This document shows positions 25,917-36,793 of a stretch of 36,977 bases of DNA, piece after piece. The stretch lies in assembly GCA_011051715.1 (NCBI GenBank), contig DRKP01000011.1, forward strand, positions 1 through 36,977, in the 5' to 3' direction. This stretch comes from Sedimenticola thiotaurini. Its GTDB lineage: Bacteria > Pseudomonadota > Gammaproteobacteria > Chromatiales > Chromatiaceae. Every line of letters starts with the position of its first letter. Position 1 is the first letter of the stretch. The notes below the pieces were generated by a model. That model had not been told where the DNA came from, searched no databases, and was given only the letters and a program-made list of their open reading frames with translations. The position numbers were made by a program, and so were the translations under genes.

Positions 25917-27292
25917 ACCCGGATCTGCTCGGTCCGCTGATGTTCGGGGCGGCGCTGCTGCTGATCTTCACCGGCTACCCGGTTGCCTTCGCCCTCGGCG
26001 GTACGGCGCTGATCTTCGCCGGCATCGGCATCCACATGGAGCTGCTGGATTTCGCCATGATGCAGGCGATCTCCCAGCGCATCTTCGGCGTGATGCAGAG
26101 TTACACCCTGCTGGCGGTGCCCTTCTTCATCCTGATGGGAACCATCCTGGAACGGACCGGGCTGGCCAAGGACCTGCTGCGCACCATGGGCATCGCCTTC
26201 GGTCCCCTGCGGGGCGGCCTCGGTTTCTCGGTGATCATCGTCGGCACCCTGCTGGCGGCGGCCACCGGCGTGGTCGGTGCCACCGTGGTGGCGATGGGCA
26301 TGATCGCCCTGCCGGTGATGCTCAAGTACAACTACTCCAAGCCCCTCGCCACCGGCATCATCTCCGCCTCCGGCACCCTGGGCCAGGTGATCCCGCCCAG
26401 CATCGTGTTGATCGTGCTGGCGGATCAGCTCGGCGTCTCGGTGGGCGACCTGTTCGTCGGCTCCCTGCTTCCCGGTCTGATGCTGGCGGCGATGTATCTG
26501 ATCTACGTGGCCGGCGTGGCCGTGACCCGTCCCGCCGCCGCCCCGGCGATGCCGGCAGAGGACCGGACCATGCACGGGTGGGAGCTGTGGAGTCAGATCA
26601 TCTGGGTGATGATGCCGCCGCTGGTGCTGATCGTGGTGGTGCTGGGCAGCATCTTCATCGGCTGGGCGACGCCCACCGAGGCGGGCGCCTTCGGCGCGGT
26701 GGGGGCCATGATCCTGGCCTTCCTCAACCGGCGCCTGAGCTGGGGCTCGGTGCGCGAGAGCATGGATACCACCGCCAAGCTGACCAGCATGGTGCTGTTC
26801 ATCCTGGTCGGATCCCAGACCTTCTCGCTGGTGTTCCGCGGCCTCTACGGCGATCTCTGGATCGAGGACCTGCTCACCGGCCTGCCGGGTGGCGAGATCG
26901 GTTTCCTGGTGCTGGTCAACCTGGCGATCTTCGTTCTCGGCTTCTTCATCGACTTCTTCGAGATCGCCTTCATCATCGTCCCCCTGGTGGCGCCGGTGGC
27001 GGCCCGCATCCTGGCGCCCATGTTCGAGGGCTTCGACGAGCCGGCCCGGATGGCCCTGGTGTGGTTCGGCGTGCTGATCGGCATGAACCTGCAGACCTCC
27101 TTCCTGACACCGCCGTTCGGCTTCTCCCTGTTCTATCTGCGGGGAGTGGCGCCACCGGAGGTGCGCACCGGCCATATCTACCGTGGCGCGGTTCCGTTCA
27201 TCGCCATCCAGGTGATCGGGCTGCTGCTGCTGTTCTATTTTCCGGAACTGGTGACCTGGCTGATCAGCATCGGTTTCGGTCAGCAGAACTAG
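25913..27292 (+). CDS. TRAP transporter large permease subunit (second system)
   Basis: 459 aa, DctM family, about 12 membrane helices. Visible signatures: LLAVPFFILMGTILERTGLAK, GTLGQVIPPSIVLIVLADQL, ATPTEAGAFGAVGAMILA, GFFIDFFEIAFIIVPLVAP and SFLTPPFGFSLFYLRG. The FFIDFFEIAFI segment is characteristic of the subtype paired with TakP-like proteins, which carry 2-oxoacids and related anions. It starts with GTG at 25913, overlapping the Q-subunit stop. Its own stop codon (AAC TAG) is formed by the CTAG target site of a small mobile element that follows directly. The partner binding-protein gene is downstream on the other strand. Confidence 0.92.
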   Translation: MNPDLLGPLMFGAALLLIFTGYPVAFALGGTALIFAGIGIHMELLDFAMMQAISQRIFGVMQSYTLLAVPFFILMGTILERTGLAKDLLRTMGIAFGPLRGGLGFSVIIVGTLLAAATGVVGATVVAMGMIALPVMLKYNYSKPLATGIISASGTLGQVIPPSIVLIVLADQLGVSVGDLFVGSLLPGLMLAAMYLIYVAGVAVTRPAAAPAMPAEDRTMHGWELWSQIIWVMMPPLVLIVVVLGSIFIGWATPTEAGAFGAVGAMILAFLNRRLSWGSVRESMDTTAKLTSMVLFILVGSQTFSLVFRGLYGDLWIEDLLTGLPGGEIGFLVLVNLAIFVLGFFIDFFEIAFIIVPLVAPVAARILAPMFEGFDEPARMALVWFGVLIGMNLQTSFLTPPFGFSLFYLRGVAPPEVRTGHIYRGAVPFIAIQVIGLLLLFYFPELVTWLISIGFGQQN

Positions 27293-27452
27293 GAGCCTGT
27301 CGGACTTGATCGTTTGAAGCGAAAATCACAGGGGGCGAATCAAATCGGTTTATCGAATAAGGCGAATAGCAGGGCTATTTAACGAGTTCGATAAGCTGAG
27401 TTGATCGCCATCCAGGGATTTGCAGCCAAACAGCATCAAGTCCGACAGGCTC
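27293..27452. mobile_element. 160-bp palindromic MITE flanked by CTAG duplication
   Basis: Perfect 18-bp terminal inverted repeats (GAGCCTGTCGGACTTGAT at 27293-27310 and its complement at 27435-27452) bound a 160-bp element with no coding capacity. CTAG directly flanks both ends (27289-27292 and 27453-27456), consistent with a 4-bp target duplication. Because CTAG is itself palindromic, the perfect repeat reads as 22 bp. The inner arms also match imperfectly (for example TTATCGAA at 27340-27347 and its counterpart near 27386-27393) down to AATAGC-AGG-GCTATT (27365-27379) at the exact centre, so the whole element can fold as one hairpin. A YTAR 4-bp target is known for IS5-group elements, so an IS5-type relative may mobilise it. 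This assignment is inference. Confidence 0.85.
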
Positions 27453-27492
27453 CTAGGCGTTTGCCTGCCCCCTGGGGGGCATTCGGCCATCG

Positions 27493-30933: not shown

Positions 30934-31050
30934 TTGCCTGGGAAAGCGCCCGCGGTGGGGTCTTTCCGGGGTTGCGGGGGGAAACGACTGAGCAAGTCTC
31001 TGCTTTTTCATTCCGGCACCGGCCGCAAACCGGAAGATGCGACCCCCAGG

Positions 31051-31175
31051 ATCCCGGCCCTCGCCGGGATAACGTGTTGTCTGTCAGGCATTCCCGGGCA
31101 ACTCCCTTCCCGTCATTCCGGCGAAGGCCGGAATCCATCCCGTTCAACCGCGTCGATCCCGGCCTTCGCCGGGAC
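31051..31175. repeat. Cluster of three REP-like palindromes
   Basis: Three 20-bp near-palindromes lie between rpmE and the hemerythrin gene: ATCCCGGCCCTCGCCGGGAT (31051-31070), ATTCCGGCGAAGGCCGGAAT (31115-31134) and ATCCCGGCCTTCGCCGGGAC (31156-31175). Unit 2 is in the opposite sense to unit 3, and its surroundings (CGTCATTCCGGCGAAGG) match dispersed repeats common in proteobacterial genomes. A more degenerate copy may start near 31009. This is most of the 340-bp gene-free stretch 30866-31205. Confidence 0.75.
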
Positions 31176-31205
31176 GAGGGGGATGTCCGAAGGTCGCCGG
31201 AATTC

Positions 31206-31775
31206 TTAGGTAACGCCGCGCTCGTTCAGGTAGGCGGAGTACTGCTTGTCCGTCACCTTGATATGGTCGGTGAGCCACAGAGTGAGATAGTCGGCCACTT
31301 CGGGCAGGATCTTGCGACCCTGCTCGTCGTAGCGCCGGACGTAGGTGTTGACGTAGCTGATCATCTGATCGTGCTGGGCCTTGTGGCCCTCGTAGTTGGG
31401 GAATTCATGCTGTCGCAGCAGCTCCTCTTCCCGCTGCAGGTGCTCCTTGGTGTACTCCACCAGGTCTTCCAGATTGCGGCGCTCGAAGGCCTCTCCCGTG
31501 TTGCACAGCACTGCGGCACGCAGGTTGTTGATCAGGTTCAGCAGCTTCTTGTGGTCCCGGTCCATGGCCTCGATACCGACACTCAGGTCCTCGTCCCAGA
31601 CCAGGAAACTGTCGCATTTGGTGGCCTTGCTCCGGAGCAGCAGGGGCACCAGCAGGAGTCCGACCAGCAGCAGCCATGGGGCCGGGGATGCCGCCCCCAT
31701 GGCCATGAATACCAGGACATCGGCGGCTGCCAGCAATACCAGGATGACAGCCAGCAGTATCTTCTTGTTCTGCAT
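31206..31775 (-). CDS. Membrane-anchored bacteriohemerythrin
   Basis: 189 aa. Two N-terminal membrane segments (about 5-26 and 33-48) are followed by a hemerythrin domain (about 58-185). All seven di-iron ligands are visible: H75 (MDRDHKK), H112 and E116 (EHLQREE), H131 and H135 (HKAQH), H171 and D176 (HIKVTD). It should bind oxygen reversibly at the membrane, supplying oxygen to a membrane enzyme or shielding oxygen-sensitive ones. The ATG at 31775 follows AAAGGAGGGGG. It lies after the rnf operon on the same strand but has its own promoter at 31843-31872. Confidence 0.9.
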   Translation of the reverse strand: MQNKKILLAVILVLLAAADVLVFMAMGAASPAPWLLLVGLLLVPLLLRSKATKCDSFLVWDEDLSVGIEAMDRDHKKLLNLINNLRAAVLCNTGEAFERRNLEDLVEYTKEHLQREEELLRQHEFPNYEGHKAQHDQMISYVNTYVRRYDEQGRKILPEVADYLTLWLTDHIKVTDKQYSAYLNERGVT

Positions 31776-32043: not shown

Positions 32044-32202
32044 TCAATCCCTGCGCTGGGGGCACCCCTTGCTGCTGCAGGCGCCGCAGCCGGGCCGGAA
32101 ACCGGCCCTCTTGTCCGGGTCCTGGCGCCCCAGCCAGAGCTGGAACCCCATCCAGCCGGCGCATAGCAGCACCAGCCCCAGCAGTGCCAAAACATGTGTC
32201 AT
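32044..32202 (-). CDS. Small cysteine-rich membrane protein linked to rnf (52 aa)
   Basis: 52 aa, starting ATG at 32202 after GGGAG and ending TGA at 32044. One membrane helix (about 3-24, HVLALLGLVLLCAGWMGFQL) is followed by a short basic tail with the motif C39-x2-C42-x4-C47 (GCGACSSKGCPQ). A fourth Cys (C14) is in the helix. It starts 31 bp after rnfA, same strand, so it is very likely the last gene of the rnf operon. The layout resembles NqrM (DUF539), needed to mature the related Na+-NQR by supplying iron, and FeoB-associated Cys-rich proteins. A role in iron or Fe-S delivery to RnfA/RnfE is inference. Longer open frames overlap it but lack ribosome sites and a credible composition. Confidence 0.75.
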   Translation of the reverse strand: MTHVLALLGLVLLCAGWMGFQLWLGRQDPDKRAGFRPGCGACSSKGCPQRRD

Positions 32203-32233
32203 CGATCCCGTCTCCCGTCACGAACCCCGCCAG

Positions 32234-32812
32234 TCACCCCGAGCTGAACAGCCCCGCGAACCCCATGAACGCCATCGACAGGATCCCGGCGATGATCAGG
32301 TTCATGGCCGTCCCCTGCACCAGCGCCGGCACGTCCGACAGCTCGGTCTCCTCCCGCAGACCGGCCATCAGTACCAGGGCCAGGGTGAAGCCGCCCCCGG
32401 CGCCGAGGGCGAATACCAGCCCCTCCATTAGATCATAGCCCCGGTTGGTGGCGAAGATGGCCAGCCCCAGGATGGCGCAGTTGGTGGTGATCAGTGGCAG
32501 AAAGATGCCCAGGGCCTTGAACAGGGCGGGGCTGGTCTTCTTGATCGCCATCTCGATGAACTGCACCGTGCTGGCGATCACCACGATGAAGCTGATCAGC
32601 CGCAGGTAGGGGGCGTAGATCAGCACGTAGGTGTTCAGGATCCAGGCGCAGAGGGCGGTGACCACCAGTACGAAGGTGGTGGCCAGGCCGAGCCGGAACG
32701 AGGTCTCCAGCCGCCCCGACACCCCGAGAAAGGGGCACAGGCCGAGAAAGTAGGCCAGCACGAAGTTGTTGACCAGCAGGGCGCTGATGAAGATCCAGAT
32801 CAGGTTGTCCAT
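32234..32812 (-). CDS. rnfA: Ion-translocating electron transport complex subunit RnfA
   Basis: 192 aa, six membrane helices, closely matching E. coli RsxA (NNFVLAYFLGLCPFLGVS; KKTSPALFKALGIFLPLITT). The conserved cysteines in LGLCPF and TTNCAI are those that, together with the RnfE pair, hold the Fe-S centre inside the membrane. The ATG at 32812 follows GGAGGT. It lies 132 bp after rnfE; the gap has no credible gene. Confidence 0.95.
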   Translation of the reverse strand: MDNLIWIFISALLVNNFVLAYFLGLCPFLGVSGRLETSFRLGLATTFVLVVTALCAWILNTYVLIYAPYLRLISFIVVIASTVQFIEMAIKKTSPALFKALGIFLPLITTNCAILGLAIFATNRGYDLMEGLVFALGAGGGFTLALVLMAGLREETELSDVPALVQGTAMNLIIAGILSMAFMGFAGLFSSG

Positions 32813-32944: not shown

Positions 32945-33598
32945 TCAGCCCTCCTCGGCGTCGAGGGCCGCCACCCGCTGCAGGAAGGCGCGCCGGCGGA
33001 CGGTGAACCAGTTGAAGAACAGCAGGATCAGTCCCAGGGTGAGGAAGCCGCCCGGAGGCAGGATCATGATCACCCAGGGCTCGAAGCCGTCGCCGAACAG
33101 GTCGACGTTGAACAGGGAGCCGCTGCCGAGGATCTCGCGCACGCCGCCGAGGGCGAGCAGGGCCAGCAGAAAGCCGCCGGACATGCCCAGGGCGTCCATC
33201 ACCGCATAGCGCACGCTGTGGCGGGAGGCGAACGCCTCCTGCCGGCCCAGGATCATGCAGTTGGCCACGATCAGCGGGATGAAGGCGCCCAGCTCCTTGT
33301 GCACCTTCGGCAACAGCGCCAGCAGGGTGTAGTCGGCCACGGTGACGAAGGTGGCGATGATGATGACGTAGAGGGAGATGCGCACCTGCTTCGGGATCAG
33401 GTGCTTCATCGCCGCCACCAGGAAGCTGGAGCCGACCAGCACGAACAGGGTGGCGCCACCCATGACCACGGCGTTGACCGCGGAGTTGGTCACCGCCAGC
33501 ATCGGGCACATCCCCAGCACCTGCACGAACACCGGGTTGTCGCGCCAGATTCCCTTGATGAACTCCTGGTAGGCGTCCAGGTCTTTCTCGGTACTCAT
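32945..33598 (-). CDS. rnfE: Ion-translocating electron transport complex subunit RnfE
   Basis: 217 aa, six membrane helices, homologous to RnfA. The conserved cysteines are in VLGMCPMLAVT and IVANCMILGRQEAFAS, the RnfE signature. It pairs with RnfA in inverted topology to form the intramembrane Fe-S site that passes electrons across the membrane. The ATG at 33598 follows GAGGTGAG. A 176-bp spacer with a strong hairpin separates it from rnfG, unusually long for an rnf operon. Confidence 0.94.
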   Translation of the reverse strand: MSTEKDLDAYQEFIKGIWRDNPVFVQVLGMCPMLAVTNSAVNAVVMGGATLFVLVGSSFLVAAMKHLIPKQVRISLYVIIIATFVTVADYTLLALLPKVHKELGAFIPLIVANCMILGRQEAFASRHSVRYAVMDALGMSGGFLLALLALGGVREILGSGSLFNVDLFGDGFEPWVIMILPPGGFLTLGLILLFFNWFTVRRRAFLQRVAALDAEEG

Positions 33599-33774: not shown

Positions 33775-34434
33775 TCACTCCATCCGGTCGGGTGCGGGCC
33801 CGCTGCCCGGCGCCGGCAGCCGCTTCTCCCAGCGGGACCGGGCCCGGTTGATGATCCGTACCACCGCCTTGGAGGAGATGGTGGCGCCGGTGATGGCGTC
33901 GATCTGGTTGGGCGCCGTGCTGGTGCCCTTCTTCACCGCCACGATCTCCGGGTCGACCGCCAGATCGTCGAAATTGGCCACGAAGTCGGCGTCCTTGTAG
34001 ATTTTATCCCCCAGCCCCGGCGTCTCGCGGCTGTCCAGGATCGCCATGCCGACGATGCGCCGCTGCCGCGGCAGGTAGCCGTAGAGCAGCTTGATGGTGT
34101 CCTGGAAGCCCGGGCCCTCGGCCGGGATGGCATAACCGATGAAGCGTCCGGCGCCGTCGTAGCCGGCATAGAGGGTGTCGTCGTCCGCCTTGCCGGGATT
34201 GGGCACCAGACCGCGGCCGTCGTAGCGCAGCGCCTGCATCTTCCGGACCCCCGGCAGCACCTGGAACACCGCCTCGCGCAACTCCCGCGCCCTGTTGGCC
34301 TCGATCGTGGGCAGGGTCGCCTCGTAGACGCCGATGATGATGATGCCGGCGAGCAGGCCCGCCAGCGCCATCGCCAGCACCAGCCGGGTGCTGCCCGGTT
34401 CCCGCTGCGGCTGGACCGGCACCGGGGTGCTCAT
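33775..34434 (-). CDS. rnfG: Electron transport complex subunit RnfG, FMN-binding
   Basis: 219 aa. One N-terminal membrane helix (about 18-38, LVLAMALAGLLAGIIIIGVY) anchors a periplasmic FMN domain. The covalent flavin attachment motif is intact: DAITGATISSKAVV, where the Thr of TGAT-I carries FMN through a phosphoester bond. The motif ETPGLGDKI precedes it, as in other RnfG/NqrC proteins. The ATG at 34434 overlaps the rnfD stop (ATGA). Attachment needs an ApbE flavin transferase, which is not encoded in this window. Confidence 0.94.
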   Translation of the reverse strand: MSTPVPVQPQREPGSTRLVLAMALAGLLAGIIIIGVYEATLPTIEANRARELREAVFQVLPGVRKMQALRYDGRGLVPNPGKADDDTLYAGYDGAGRFIGYAIPAEGPGFQDTIKLLYGYLPRQRRIVGMAILDSRETPGLGDKIYKDADFVANFDDLAVDPEIVAVKKGTSTAPNQIDAITGATISSKAVVRIINRARSRWEKRLPAPGSGPAPDRME

Positions 34435-35450
34435 GGCCGGCGGCCCCCACGGCCGAAGATGCGGGGCTGGGTCCAGCGGTCGATCAGGGGGGTGGCGGCG
34501 TTCATCAGCAGGATGGCGTACATGGTCCCCTCCGGCAGGCCGCCGAACATCCGGATCAGCACCACCAGCAGGCCGATCCCGACGCCGAAGATCCAGGCCC
34601 CGCGGGGCGTGGTGGGCGAGGTGACCGGATCGGTGGCCATGTAGATCGCCCCCAGCAGCAGGCCGCCGGAGAAGAGGGTGGCCTGGGGCGGCGGGAAGCG
34701 GCTGCCGTCGACCAGGAACAGGACCAGGGAGAAGAGGGCGGCGCTGGCGAAGATGGCGGCCGGGATGCGCCAGTCCAGGTCCCGGCGCAGCCACAGCCAG
34801 ATCCCCCCGAGGAGCAGCAGCAGGCCCGAGGTCTCGCCCAGGGAGCCGGCGGTGTTGCCGATCAGCAGCCGGGTGAACCCGGTCCCCTGCTGCTGGAACT
34901 TCATCAGTCCCAGCGGGGTGGCGGCGGAGACCGCGTCGTAGTCCGGGCTCTGCAGCGGCAGCGCCAGCAGGCTGGCGGAGAGGTCGAAGAAGGCGGCAGG
35001 GTCGCCGGCGGGGCTCCAGGTGGTCATGGCGATGGGAAAGGTGCCGAGCAGGAAGGCGCGCCCCACCAGGGCCGGGTTGAACAGGTTGCCACCCAGGCCG
35101 CCCCAGATCGTCTTGCCCAGGCCGATCGCCACCACGCCACCGAGAAAGGCCATCCACAGGGGCAGCCCCGGGGGCAGGGTGAGGCCCAGCAGCAGGCCGG
35201 TGAGGGCGGCGCTGTTGTCTCCCAGGACCACCTTTCTGCGTTCCGGCGGAGTAAACACCCACTCCGTCCCTACAGCCGCTATGACGGTGGTCAGGAGCAG
35301 GAGCAGGGCGCCGATACCGAAGAACCACAGGGCCGCCAGGGTGGTCGGCAGCAGGGCCAGCCAGACATCACGCATGGCCTGGGGAGTGGTCATCCCCTGG
35401 TGCAGCAGGGGTGCCGACTGGAGCAGCAGGCGGGGATCCTTGCGTTCCAT
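34431..35450 (-). CDS. rnfD: Electron transport complex subunit RnfD
   Basis: 339 aa, about nine to ten membrane helices. The covalent-FMN region is DAVSAATPLGLMK, the Rnf version of the SGAT motif in NqrB. Other signatures are GDNSAALTGLLLGLTLPP, GGNLFNPALVGRAFLL and AIYMATDPVTSPTTPRG. It forms the ion-pumping membrane core with RnfA, E and G. The ATG at 35450 lies 2 bp after the rnfC stop, and the stop overlaps rnfG, so C, D and G are tightly coupled. Confidence 0.95.
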   Translation of the reverse strand: MERKDPRLLLQSAPLLHQGMTTPQAMRDVWLALLPTTLAALWFFGIGALLLLLTTVIAAVGTEWVFTPPERRKVVLGDNSAALTGLLLGLTLPPGLPLWMAFLGGVVAIGLGKTIWGGLGGNLFNPALVGRAFLLGTFPIAMTTWSPAGDPAAFFDLSASLLALPLQSPDYDAVSAATPLGLMKFQQQGTGFTRLLIGNTAGSLGETSGLLLLLGGIWLWLRRDLDWRIPAAIFASAALFSLVLFLVDGSRFPPPQATLFSGGLLLGAIYMATDPVTSPTTPRGAWIFGVGIGLLVVLIRMFGGLPEGTMYAILLMNAATPLIDRWTQPRIFGRGGRRP

Positions 35451-35452
35451 GC

Positions 35453-36793
35453 TCAGCGTGCTCCCCCCTGGTGGCGGAGATTGTCCTTGGCGGTGCGGAT
35501 CAGCTGCACGATGGGGATGCTGGAGGGGCAGGCGAAGGTGCAGGCGCCGCACTCGACGCAGTCCATCACCCGGTAGCGTTCCTCCATCTCCCGGAACAGC
35601 CGCGCCCGCCCCAGCCGCGCCAGCCGTGACGGGTTGAGAAAGTAGGGGCAGGCCTCCAGGCAGCGGCCGCAGCGGATGCAGGGATACTCGCGCGGGCGCG
35701 CCGTCTCCCGCTCGGTGAAGGCGAGGATGCCGGAGGTCCCCTTCAGCACCGGCACGTCCAGGCTGGCCAGGGGCGTGCCCATCATCGGGCCGCCCATGAT
35801 CACCTCCCGGGTCTCCTCCTTCAGGCCGTTGCAGAAGCGCAGCACGTCACGCACGGGGGTGCCCAGGGGCACCACCAGGTTGGCCGGATAGGCGGCGCCG
35901 GGGCCGGAGACGGTCACCACCCGCTCGATCAGGGGCATGCCGCGGTCGAACCAGTCGGCGATCGCCACCAGGGTGCCGACGTTGTTGACCGCGATCCCCA
36001 GGTCCCGGGGCAGCTGGCCGGCCGGCACCTCGCGGTCGTAGACCGCCTTGATCAGCATCTTCTCCGCCCCCTGGGGATACTTCACCGGCAGCGACACCAC
36101 CTCCACCGGGTCGTCGGGCCGGATCTGCCCCTCCAGGGCCCGGATCGCCTCCGGCTTGTTCGCCTCCACGCCGATGCTGGCCCGCTCCGCCCCCAGCTTG
36201 GCCAGCAGGATCCGGATCCCCCGCAGCAATGCCTCCGGGCACTCGATCATCAGCCGGTGGTCGTTGGTCAGGTAGGGCTCGCACTCGGCCCCGTTGACCA
36301 GCAGATCGCGGATGCGCTGGCCCTCGGGGAGGGAGTACTTGACGTGGGCCGGGAAGGCGGCGCCGCCCATGCCGACGATACCCGCCCGCTGTACCTCGGC
36401 GATGAACTGATCCAGGCTGAGGGACTCCCACTCGCGTGGGGGGCGGGGCGGCAGCTGCTGGGTGGAGTAGGGGTCGGCCTCGATCTCGATGGCGGGGCGG
36501 AAGCTGCCATCGGTGCAGCGGCGCGGGCCGATCTCCGTCACCCGGCCGGTCACCGGGCTGTGCAGGCAGGTGGAGACGAAGGCCCCGGCCTCGGCGATGA
36601 GCTGACCGCGCACCACCTCCTCGCCAGGCGCCACCACCGGTTTCGCCGGTGCGCCGATGTGCTGGCCCAGGGGCATGACGTAGCGTTCGCCGAACGGAAC
36701 CCGCTGGATCGGCCGGTCGGCGGTCTGCTCCTTGTGGCCCTCGGGGTGGACGCCGTGGGAGAAGCTGCGTTCGAACAGGGTCAGCAGGGACAT
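35453..36793 (-). CDS. rnfC: Electron transport complex subunit RnfC
   Basis: 446 aa, the short form found in clostridial-type Rnf; E. coli RsxC is about 740 aa because of a long C-terminal extension absent here. The NADH/FMN-binding part has GIVGMGGAAFPAHVK (138-152) and NGAECEPYLTNDHR. Two [4Fe-4S] motifs follow: C372-x2-C375-x2-C378-x3-C382 and C412-x2-C415-x2-C418-x3-C422. It is the cytoplasmic subunit that exchanges electrons with NADH. The ATG at 36793 gives the usual N-terminus; the ribosome site is weak. It is the first visible rnf gene. Confidence 0.95.
   Translation of the reverse strand: MSLLTLFERSFSHGVHPEGHKEQTADRPIQRVPFGERYVMPLGQHIGAPAKPVVAPGEEVVRGQLIAEAGAFVSTCLHSPVTGRVTEIGPRRCTDGSFRPAIEIEADPYSTQQLPPRPPREWESLSLDQFIAEVQRAGIVGMGGAAFPAHVKYSLPEGQRIRDLLVNGAECEPYLTNDHRLMIECPEALLRGIRILLAKLGAERASIGVEANKPEAIRALEGQIRPDDPVEVVSLPVKYPQGAEKMLIKAVYDREVPAGQLPRDLGIAVNNVGTLVAIADWFDRGMPLIERVVTVSGPGAAYPANLVVPLGTPVRDVLRFCNGLKEETREVIMGGPMMGTPLASLDVPVLKGTSGILAFTERETARPREYPCIRCGRCLEACPYFLNPSRLARLGRARLFREMEERYRVMDCVECGACTFACPSSIPIVQLIRTAKDNLRHQGGAR

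Follow-up and report, generated by a model that had tools for sequence, protein, structure and literature searches.

Four cysteine ligands hold the intramembrane [2Fe-2S] centre, according to the accessible part of PMC12174285, and the same text indicates that NqrM seems to be required for inserting a centre of this kind into NQR. In the accessible part of PMC6209661, NqrM is predicted to deliver iron to NqrD/NqrE. For Rnf, the preliminary description of the locus analysed here had known of no dedicated maturation factor, a statement that needs qualifying, since RseC, a cysteine-bearing membrane accessory protein, is needed for the SoxR-reducing Rsx system of E. coli (PMC11729352, accessible part). 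That same part cites V. cholerae and Acetobacterium woodii as cases in which Rnf is assembled although RseC is lacking, so that RseC is no more than a possible assembly factor. Extra Rnf subunits RnfH, RnfX and RnfY have been proposed (PMC4014512, accessible part), and an rnfBCDGEA operon with PFOR genes between rnfB2 and rnfC2 is reported from the Solemya velum symbiont (PMC4287430), the accessible part of which mentions no small gene. A description of the gene presented below was not found in the accessible open-access literature, an absence that is not proof.

The window, by which is meant the whole stretch of 36,977 nucleotides of Sedimenticola thiotaurini DNA that was analysed, contains the genes rnfC, rnfD, rnfG, rnfE and rnfA followed by a small gene with the working name M, in that order and on one strand throughout. 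The features are listed in the table. The preliminary description had reported a 52-residue membrane protein with one helix and a C-x2-C-x4-C tail located 31 nt behind rnfA, and this is confirmed by both the sequence and an AlphaFold2 model. Read from its ATG start, protein M is MTHVLALLGLVLLCAGWMGFQLWLGRQDPDKRAGFRPGCGACSSKGCPQRRD. A consensus scan of the 31-nt gap between rnfA and gene M returned no promoter-like or terminator-like sites, which is weak evidence for a single transcript. RnfA and RnfE of the window each have two cysteines, placed by eye, where the ligands of the intramembrane [2Fe-2S] centre are expected. The contig stops just upstream of rnfC; an RnfB-like match (42% identity) is present on contig C8, and it may belong to the operon of the window.

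Features of the rnfCDGEA operon and gene M in the window
Feature	Position	Strand	Basis
Gene M, 52 aa, single helix and Cys tail	32044..32202, including stop codon	(-)	ORF, homologue searches, profile, substitution pattern
Cys tail of M	32062..32088	(-)	C39 32086-32088, C42 32077-32079, C47 32062-32064
Cys14 codon of M, within the helix	32161..32163	(-)	sequence
Gap between rnfA stop and gene M	32203..32233, 31 nt	(-)	
rnfA, 192 aa, cysteines in GLCPFLG and TTNCAI	32234..32812	(-)	PF02508, E 5.3e-56
rnfE, 217 aa, cysteines in GMCPML and ANCMIL	32945..33598	(-)	PF02508
rnfG	33775..34434	(-)	homology to rnfG of related loci; ATG placed from frame
rnfD	34431..35450	(-)	PF03116, E 1e-107; ATG at 35450 placed from frame
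rnfC	35453..36793	(-)	RnfC_N, Complex1_51K, Fer4

The next gene on the same strand past M encodes a hemerythrin-domain protein (31206-31775, minus strand; PF01814, E 9e-14), behind which lie REP-like repeats (31008-31181): a 62-nt unit occurs twice, with 71% similarity between the copies, alongside an inverted repeat of 36 nt. Elsewhere in the window a perfect 22-nt inverted repeat (27289-27310 and 27435-27456, with 124 nt between the arms) stands directly behind a transporter gene named TRAP-like by eye, and it looks like the remnant of a small mobile element.

Gene M is real, conserved, and tied to one clade of rnfA. In tblastn searches of 55 genomes (S. thiotaurini and relatives), nine genomes including that of S. 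thiotaurini have a match at E <1e-4, and all nine matches are located directly behind rnfA. RnfA proteins of these 55 genomes fall into ten of type I (74-100% identity to the window RnfA), eighteen of type II (59-63%), and a remainder at or below 57%. Gene M follows nine of the ten type I rnfA genes, the window's own included; the contig of the tenth (G025, taken to be the same contig as locus L060) ends about 190 nt past rnfA, and M is not encoded in that stretch. A second rnfCDGEA operon of S. thiotaurini, on contig C10, ends in a gene for a 59-aa protein with a transmembrane (TM) segment and cysteines that overlaps rnfA by 8 nt, and with this protein as the query an M-type gene was found at all 18 type II loci. 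An extra copy in G013 has an internal stop and lies behind an rnfA that is frameshifted and split over two frames. Of the three Rnf-type clusters in the S. thiotaurini genome (contigs C11, C10 and C76), two are rnfCDGEA operons that include a Cys-tail gene and the third is an rnfABCDGE operon that has no M gene.

A wider sample consists of named loci from Gammaproteobacteria, Bacteroidota, SAR324 and other groups, which are the best 80 of 562 confirmed matches to the window RnfA in public genomes. The expectation that a short frame would be kept after rnfA in relatives is borne out, with an M relative directly behind rnfA at 70 of these best 80 of 562 and, class-wide, in 25 of 26 profile matches described below; at one further named locus (L121) the relative lies about 480 nt downstream. 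A profile of 86 sequences, 68 of which come from these same loci, finds M at 71 of the best 80, including a copy in L120 that is truncated by the contig end and the real copy in L093, a locus left out of the family set owing to the selection of a wrong 157-aa frame. The start of M overlaps the rnfA stop by 4 nt at seven of the best 80 of 562. A filter requiring an ORF of 30-95 aa no more than 100 nt past the rnfA stop, with a hydrophobic stretch, W-x3-[QE] and then at least two cysteines, is passed at 69 of the best 80 of 562, against 11 of 3684 positions drawn at random from those loci, the filter having been designed after the family was seen; the two copies that the profile adds to these 69 are those in L120 and L121. 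To judge from record titles, most of which denote metagenome bins, carriers include Thiocystis violacea, Ca. Thiodiazotropha, tubeworm endosymbionts, Woeseiaceae, Methylophaga, Saprospiraceae, Cyclobacteriaceae, Flavobacteriales, SAR324 and a Ca. Eisenbacteria record; Bacteroidota are covered by the named loci. The profile finds no match at E 1e-3 at nine of the best 80 of 562 (L060, where the contig ends, L087, L105, L107, L113, L117, L118, L119 and L136), and L087, L107, L113, L117 and L118 bear the titles Thiomargarita, Halobeggiatoa, Parabeggiatoa, Achromatium and Thiotrichales, several of them giant sulphur bacteria. In L135 a near-identical second Cys-tail copy (L135:4275-4514) is situated about 1.2 kb downstream, with no rnfA of its own in view.

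A profile of 39 family rows (alignment A2) was run over 369 Gammaproteobacteria genomes and gave 26 matches in 21 genomes, 25 of which begin -7 to 58 nt from the point where an RnfA match ends. In the same genomes 32 RnfA proteins are at least 59% identical to that of the window, constituting the complete top of the ranking down to a break at which identity drops from 59% to 57%; 25 of them have M by profile, two have a diverged ORF with a TM segment and cysteines, and five have no M-type ORF within 250 nt. All 25 Rnf-linked matches fall among these 32 RnfA proteins, which marks a sharp boundary. The remaining match is the weakest of the 26 (E 1.2e-4; L274:1501-1665) and is an ORF with a TM segment and cysteines directly behind feoB, the gene of an iron transporter, a hint that small membrane proteins for handling iron may form a broader class. 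In a phylum-wide sample of 398 genomes, matches occur in four, all of them Gammaproteobacteria: S. thiotaurini, G744 and G651, in both of which M overlaps rnfA by 4 nt, and the FeoB case (G256). At eight control loci of the rnfABCDGE type rnfA is followed by rnfB, with no M gene. No M-type gene follows at six further control loci, taken to be NqrE from 42-48% identity, and three of these six show an NqrF-like ORF, named by eye, at that place. The proposed co-occurrence of M with rnf holds for one rnfA clade but not for rnf in general: classical rnfABCDGE operons have no such gene, and the five loci within the clade and the nine among the best 80 of 562 show no copy.

Purifying selection acts on the protein encoded by the M frame. 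Differences at codon positions 1, 2 and 3, summed over 24 independent pairs of sequences, number 256, 173 and 551, respectively, in agreement with the third-position substitution bias that had been expected, and the median dN/dS is 0.19 over 23 pairs, the 24th being saturated and yielding no value. For the window and L061 there are 12, 7 and 18 differences with a dN/dS of 0.34, and one close pair has a dN/dS of 0.89 on 11 differences.

In the AlphaFold2 model, residues 2-27 of M form the helix, with mean pLDDT of 93 for residues 1-10 and 97 for residues 11-20, and the tail is without secondary structure, with pLDDT of 50-59 in blocks from residue 31 onward. The tail reads C39-x2-C42-x4-C47, and a fourth cysteine, C14, which the preliminary description had not mentioned, is inside the helix. 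All 39 rows of A2 share W17 and C47, at least 90% have Q21 and C42, and most family members carry a W-x3-Q signature close to where the helix ends. Outside A2 the signature is looser, Trp being absent in L286 and L291 and Gln replaced in L269, L271 and L290. Conservation of all three tail cysteines, as had been anticipated, is thus seen for the last and nearly so for C42, but the exact C-x2-C-x4-C spacing varies: C-x2-C-x3-C, C-x2-C-x5-C, C-x3-C-x-C-x5-C and C-x-C-x4-C occur among 87 collected sequences. All 87 have 3-5 tail cysteines, a count that is partly by construction, as 68 of them were picked by a filter for W-x2-3-[QE] and at least two cysteines; the counts from the class-wide profile survey (26 matches, 32 RnfA) are less biased. 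A cysteine no more than four residues before the Trp is present in 58 of the 87. The net charge of the 12 residues past W-x3-Q averages +1.0 (positive in 48 of 87, negative in 17), and there is almost no charge ahead of the helix; by the positive-inside rule, this distribution makes it likely that the tail faces the cytoplasm. Subgroups differ in the residues past the helix, which are K-N-H in most members of the Bacteroidota/SAR324 form (K-H-H once) and (H/N)-P-x-(F/L)-G in the type II form. Profiles of the gamma and Bacteroidota/SAR324 subgroups match each other with an hhalign probability of 98.4, and the subgroup profiles match type II with 97 and 98.8, a score that none of 60 shuffles reaches.

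The M family is unnamed in Pfam and NCBIfam. Neither the window M nor any of seven members examined reaches a Pfam or NCBIfam cut-off, and NCBIfam gives scattered single-member matches among the 39 members of A2, the best at E 0.0012. No relatives were found among PDB chain sequences at E 1, among PHROGs at E <0.05 (three members), or among plasmids at E 0.01 (one type II member).

The surroundings of the operon vary between subgroups. In L236, L237, L239 and L240, which represent types I and II, rnfB is followed by a protein of 1500-1650 aa and later by rnfCDGEA and M. The long protein is PFOR-like by Pfam in both cases checked (L236:4733-9247 and L239:4960-9918), and its place between rnfB and rnfC suggests that electrons from 2-oxoacids are fed directly into type I and II Rnf. 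In the two type II regions a gene named thiol-peroxidase-like from its sequence precedes rnfC; the type II order is the one reported from the Solemya velum symbiont (PMC4287430). The tubeworm symbionts L064, L067, L069 and L072, as well as L099 and L127, have no long frame of this kind ahead of rnfC. When the surroundings of rnfCDGEA in the named loci (best 80 of 562) were searched with RnfB, a weak match in L081 was the sole result. In a third subgroup (L282-L284, L286, L287 and L289) a protein of 284-291 aa resembling ferredoxin-NADP reductase, named by eye, is encoded behind rnfA; M is present by profile in L289, where the reductase-like gene is followed by that of RnfB, a diverged Cys-tail gene is present in L283 and L286, and L282, L284 and L287 have none. 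In two Bacteroidota loci the operon contains other ORFs between rnfC and rnfD (L124:950-2521 and L133:948-2804), and an ORF between rnfE and rnfA (L133:5535-5891) resembles, by eye, a 23S rRNA intervening-sequence protein.

The most likely reading, to which we give about an even chance, is that M is an accessory protein dedicated to Rnf and, in the manner of NqrM, supplies the [2Fe-2S] centre of RnfA/RnfE with iron or with a cluster. The helix of M would pack against RnfA/RnfE, the tail cysteines would bind Fe2+ or a nascent [2Fe-2S] cluster for a short time on the cytoplasmic side, and M would then, as the complex is assembled, pass the iron or cluster on to the four cysteines where RnfA and RnfE meet, a task parallel to the one that NqrM seems to perform on NqrD/NqrE. 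Iron or cluster delivery is favoured by the NqrM-like layout and position, by the location of M beside the gene of a subunit that provides half of the ligands, and by the flexible Cys tail, whose variable spacing would be easier to reconcile with transfer of a cargo than with a redox site in a fixed position. Against a maturation role is the fact that classical rnfABCDGE complexes have the same centre and no M gene. The earlier proposal of an Rnf counterpart of NqrM accordingly retains the Cys tail, the layout, and the rnfA linkage, but receives no backing from the NqrM profile or from the GSCGG motif.

Operon linkage alone cannot separate an assembly factor from a stable subunit, and the main alternative, a tentative one, is that M is a small permanent component of the complex, its one helix serving as a clamp or docking site and perhaps accompanied by an Fe-S or thiol site of its own, that would aid the passage of electrons from RnfB or the neighbouring 2-oxoacid:ferredoxin oxidoreductase to RnfA/RnfE. 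Such a subunit would be consistent with the tight coupling to rnfA, including the 4-nt overlaps in seven of the best 80 of 562, with the PFOR-like protein in the four operons laid out (domains checked in two), and with the Trp and Gln of the helix, which could form a packing site. A redox centre of fixed geometry, however, would not usually show such variation in number and spacing of the cysteines; the model of the tail has low confidence and no secondary structure, and solved-structure chains include no relative at E 1.

The delivery role proposed above is described as analogous to that of NqrM; that M is instead a very diverged true NqrM orthologue, or a member of an NqrM/FeoB-associated superfamily, is considered unlikely. 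M shares with NqrM the layout of a single helix followed by a Cys-rich tail, which in some NqrM sequences also reads C-x2-C-x4-C, and comparison of M and NqrM profiles with hhalign gives probabilities of 60-94, with scores reached by none of 60 shuffles in four comparisons and by one of 60 in the fifth. However, four of these five comparisons align just 17-21 columns, and the two short alignments inspected cover different parts of the protein, the Cys tail in one subgroup and the start of the helix in another; moreover, the composition shared by small proteins with a TM segment and cysteines can mimic homology. The NqrM profile PF04400 matches neither the window M nor any of the 39 members at E 0.1, and it is absent at E 0.001 from the S. 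thiotaurini genome and 14 control genomes, whereas it exceeds its cut-off in 23 of 185 class genomes. GSCGG is present past the helix in all 18 NqrM sequences extracted from 26 PF04400 matches and absent from the M family. No genetic link to nqr was found, 25 of the 26 profile matches lying behind an rnfA of the group with at least 59% identity. On the features compared, M is not an NqrM member, and homology between the two is possible on the strength of the profile alignments. As to the FeoB_associated family, PF12669 gives the best Pfam match among the 39 members, three of which match at E 0.1 (best E 3.3e-4); one weak match, G135, is an M family member behind rnfA. The window M itself scores E 0.6 and 10.9 bits against a cut-off of 27 bits. 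PF12669 exceeds its cut-off in none of 185 class genomes and for that reason is unusable as a decoy calibration family.

Still less probable is an RseC-like regulator or redox sensor that would tune the synthesis or activity of Rnf to iron or oxygen. RseC has a cytoplasmic C-x2-C-x5-C motif and interacts with Rsx, and a fragment of it forms an Fe-S cluster that is sensitive to oxygen (PMC11729352, accessible part), and deletion of rseC lowers rnf transcription in autotrophic Clostridium ljungdahlii (PMC9124969, accessible part). Against this, M is too small for a further domain, has one helix, and is positioned after the rnf genes, and the RseC_MucC profile PF04246 reaches E 0.4-1.1 at best in three of seven members and matches none of the 39 at E 0.1. 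The idea that M is a truncated RnfB, with the TM anchor and the first three ligands of the first RnfB cluster motif C-x2-C-x4-C, is very improbable and largely refuted, for although RnfB begins with a helix, D-P and C-G-x-C-x4-C and M occupies the rnfB slot of clostridial rnfCDGEAB (order from the accessible part of PMC4841214), type I and II genomes encode an RnfB of ~290-300 aa upstream of rnfC, beyond the PFOR-like gene, G281 encodes both proteins in the order E-A-M-(reductase-like ORF)-B, the gamma subgroup aligns with the RnfB N-terminus at hhalign probabilities of 43-71, weaker than with NqrM (93), and PF04060 (RnfB FeS) matches none of the 39 members at E 0.1.

Gene M makes it testable how the iron-sulphur centre in the middle of the membrane core of Rnf is put together. 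Marine bacteria, sulphur-oxidising symbionts among them, possess this branch of Rnf; if the delivery role is correct, its heterologous production would require M, and a construct without M could fail. The finding further suggests a rule tying NqrM, RseC and the M family together. As a speculative generalization, to which we attach rather little probability, NqrM, RseC/RnfF and the M family might be branch-specific partners, each with a helix and a cytoplasmic Cys motif, that load or repair every [2Fe-2S] centre of RnfA/RnfE or NqrD/NqrE, M being the missing factor of the rnfCDGEA branch.

Among the known systems, RnfB resembles M in its N-terminal domain (TM segment and PF04060), where the TM segment is followed by C-x2-C-x4-C, whereas M lacks the fourth ligand and the ferredoxin domain, and RnfB is encoded separately in the operons examined. 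RseC/MucC (PF04246), together with the N-terminal part of RnfF, is likewise a membrane protein with a cytoplasmic Cys motif (C-x2-C-x5-C in RseC) and a functional tie to Rnf/Rsx, but it is larger, has two helices and an N-terminal Cys domain, and gives no significant profile match. FeoB_associated (PF12669) shares the small TM protein with a Cys tail, and the lone non-Rnf match of the M profile is behind feoB; the window M differs in falling far below the curated cut-off and in having rnfA as its genomic partner. NqrM (PF04400, DUF539) is, like M, a small protein with a single helix and a similar Cys tail, encoded after the operon for a complex that has this intramembrane [2Fe-2S] centre, and M is distinguished from it by the lack of a PF04400 match and of GSCGG, by linkage to rnfA rather than nqr, and by the W-x3-Q that most members carry in the helix.
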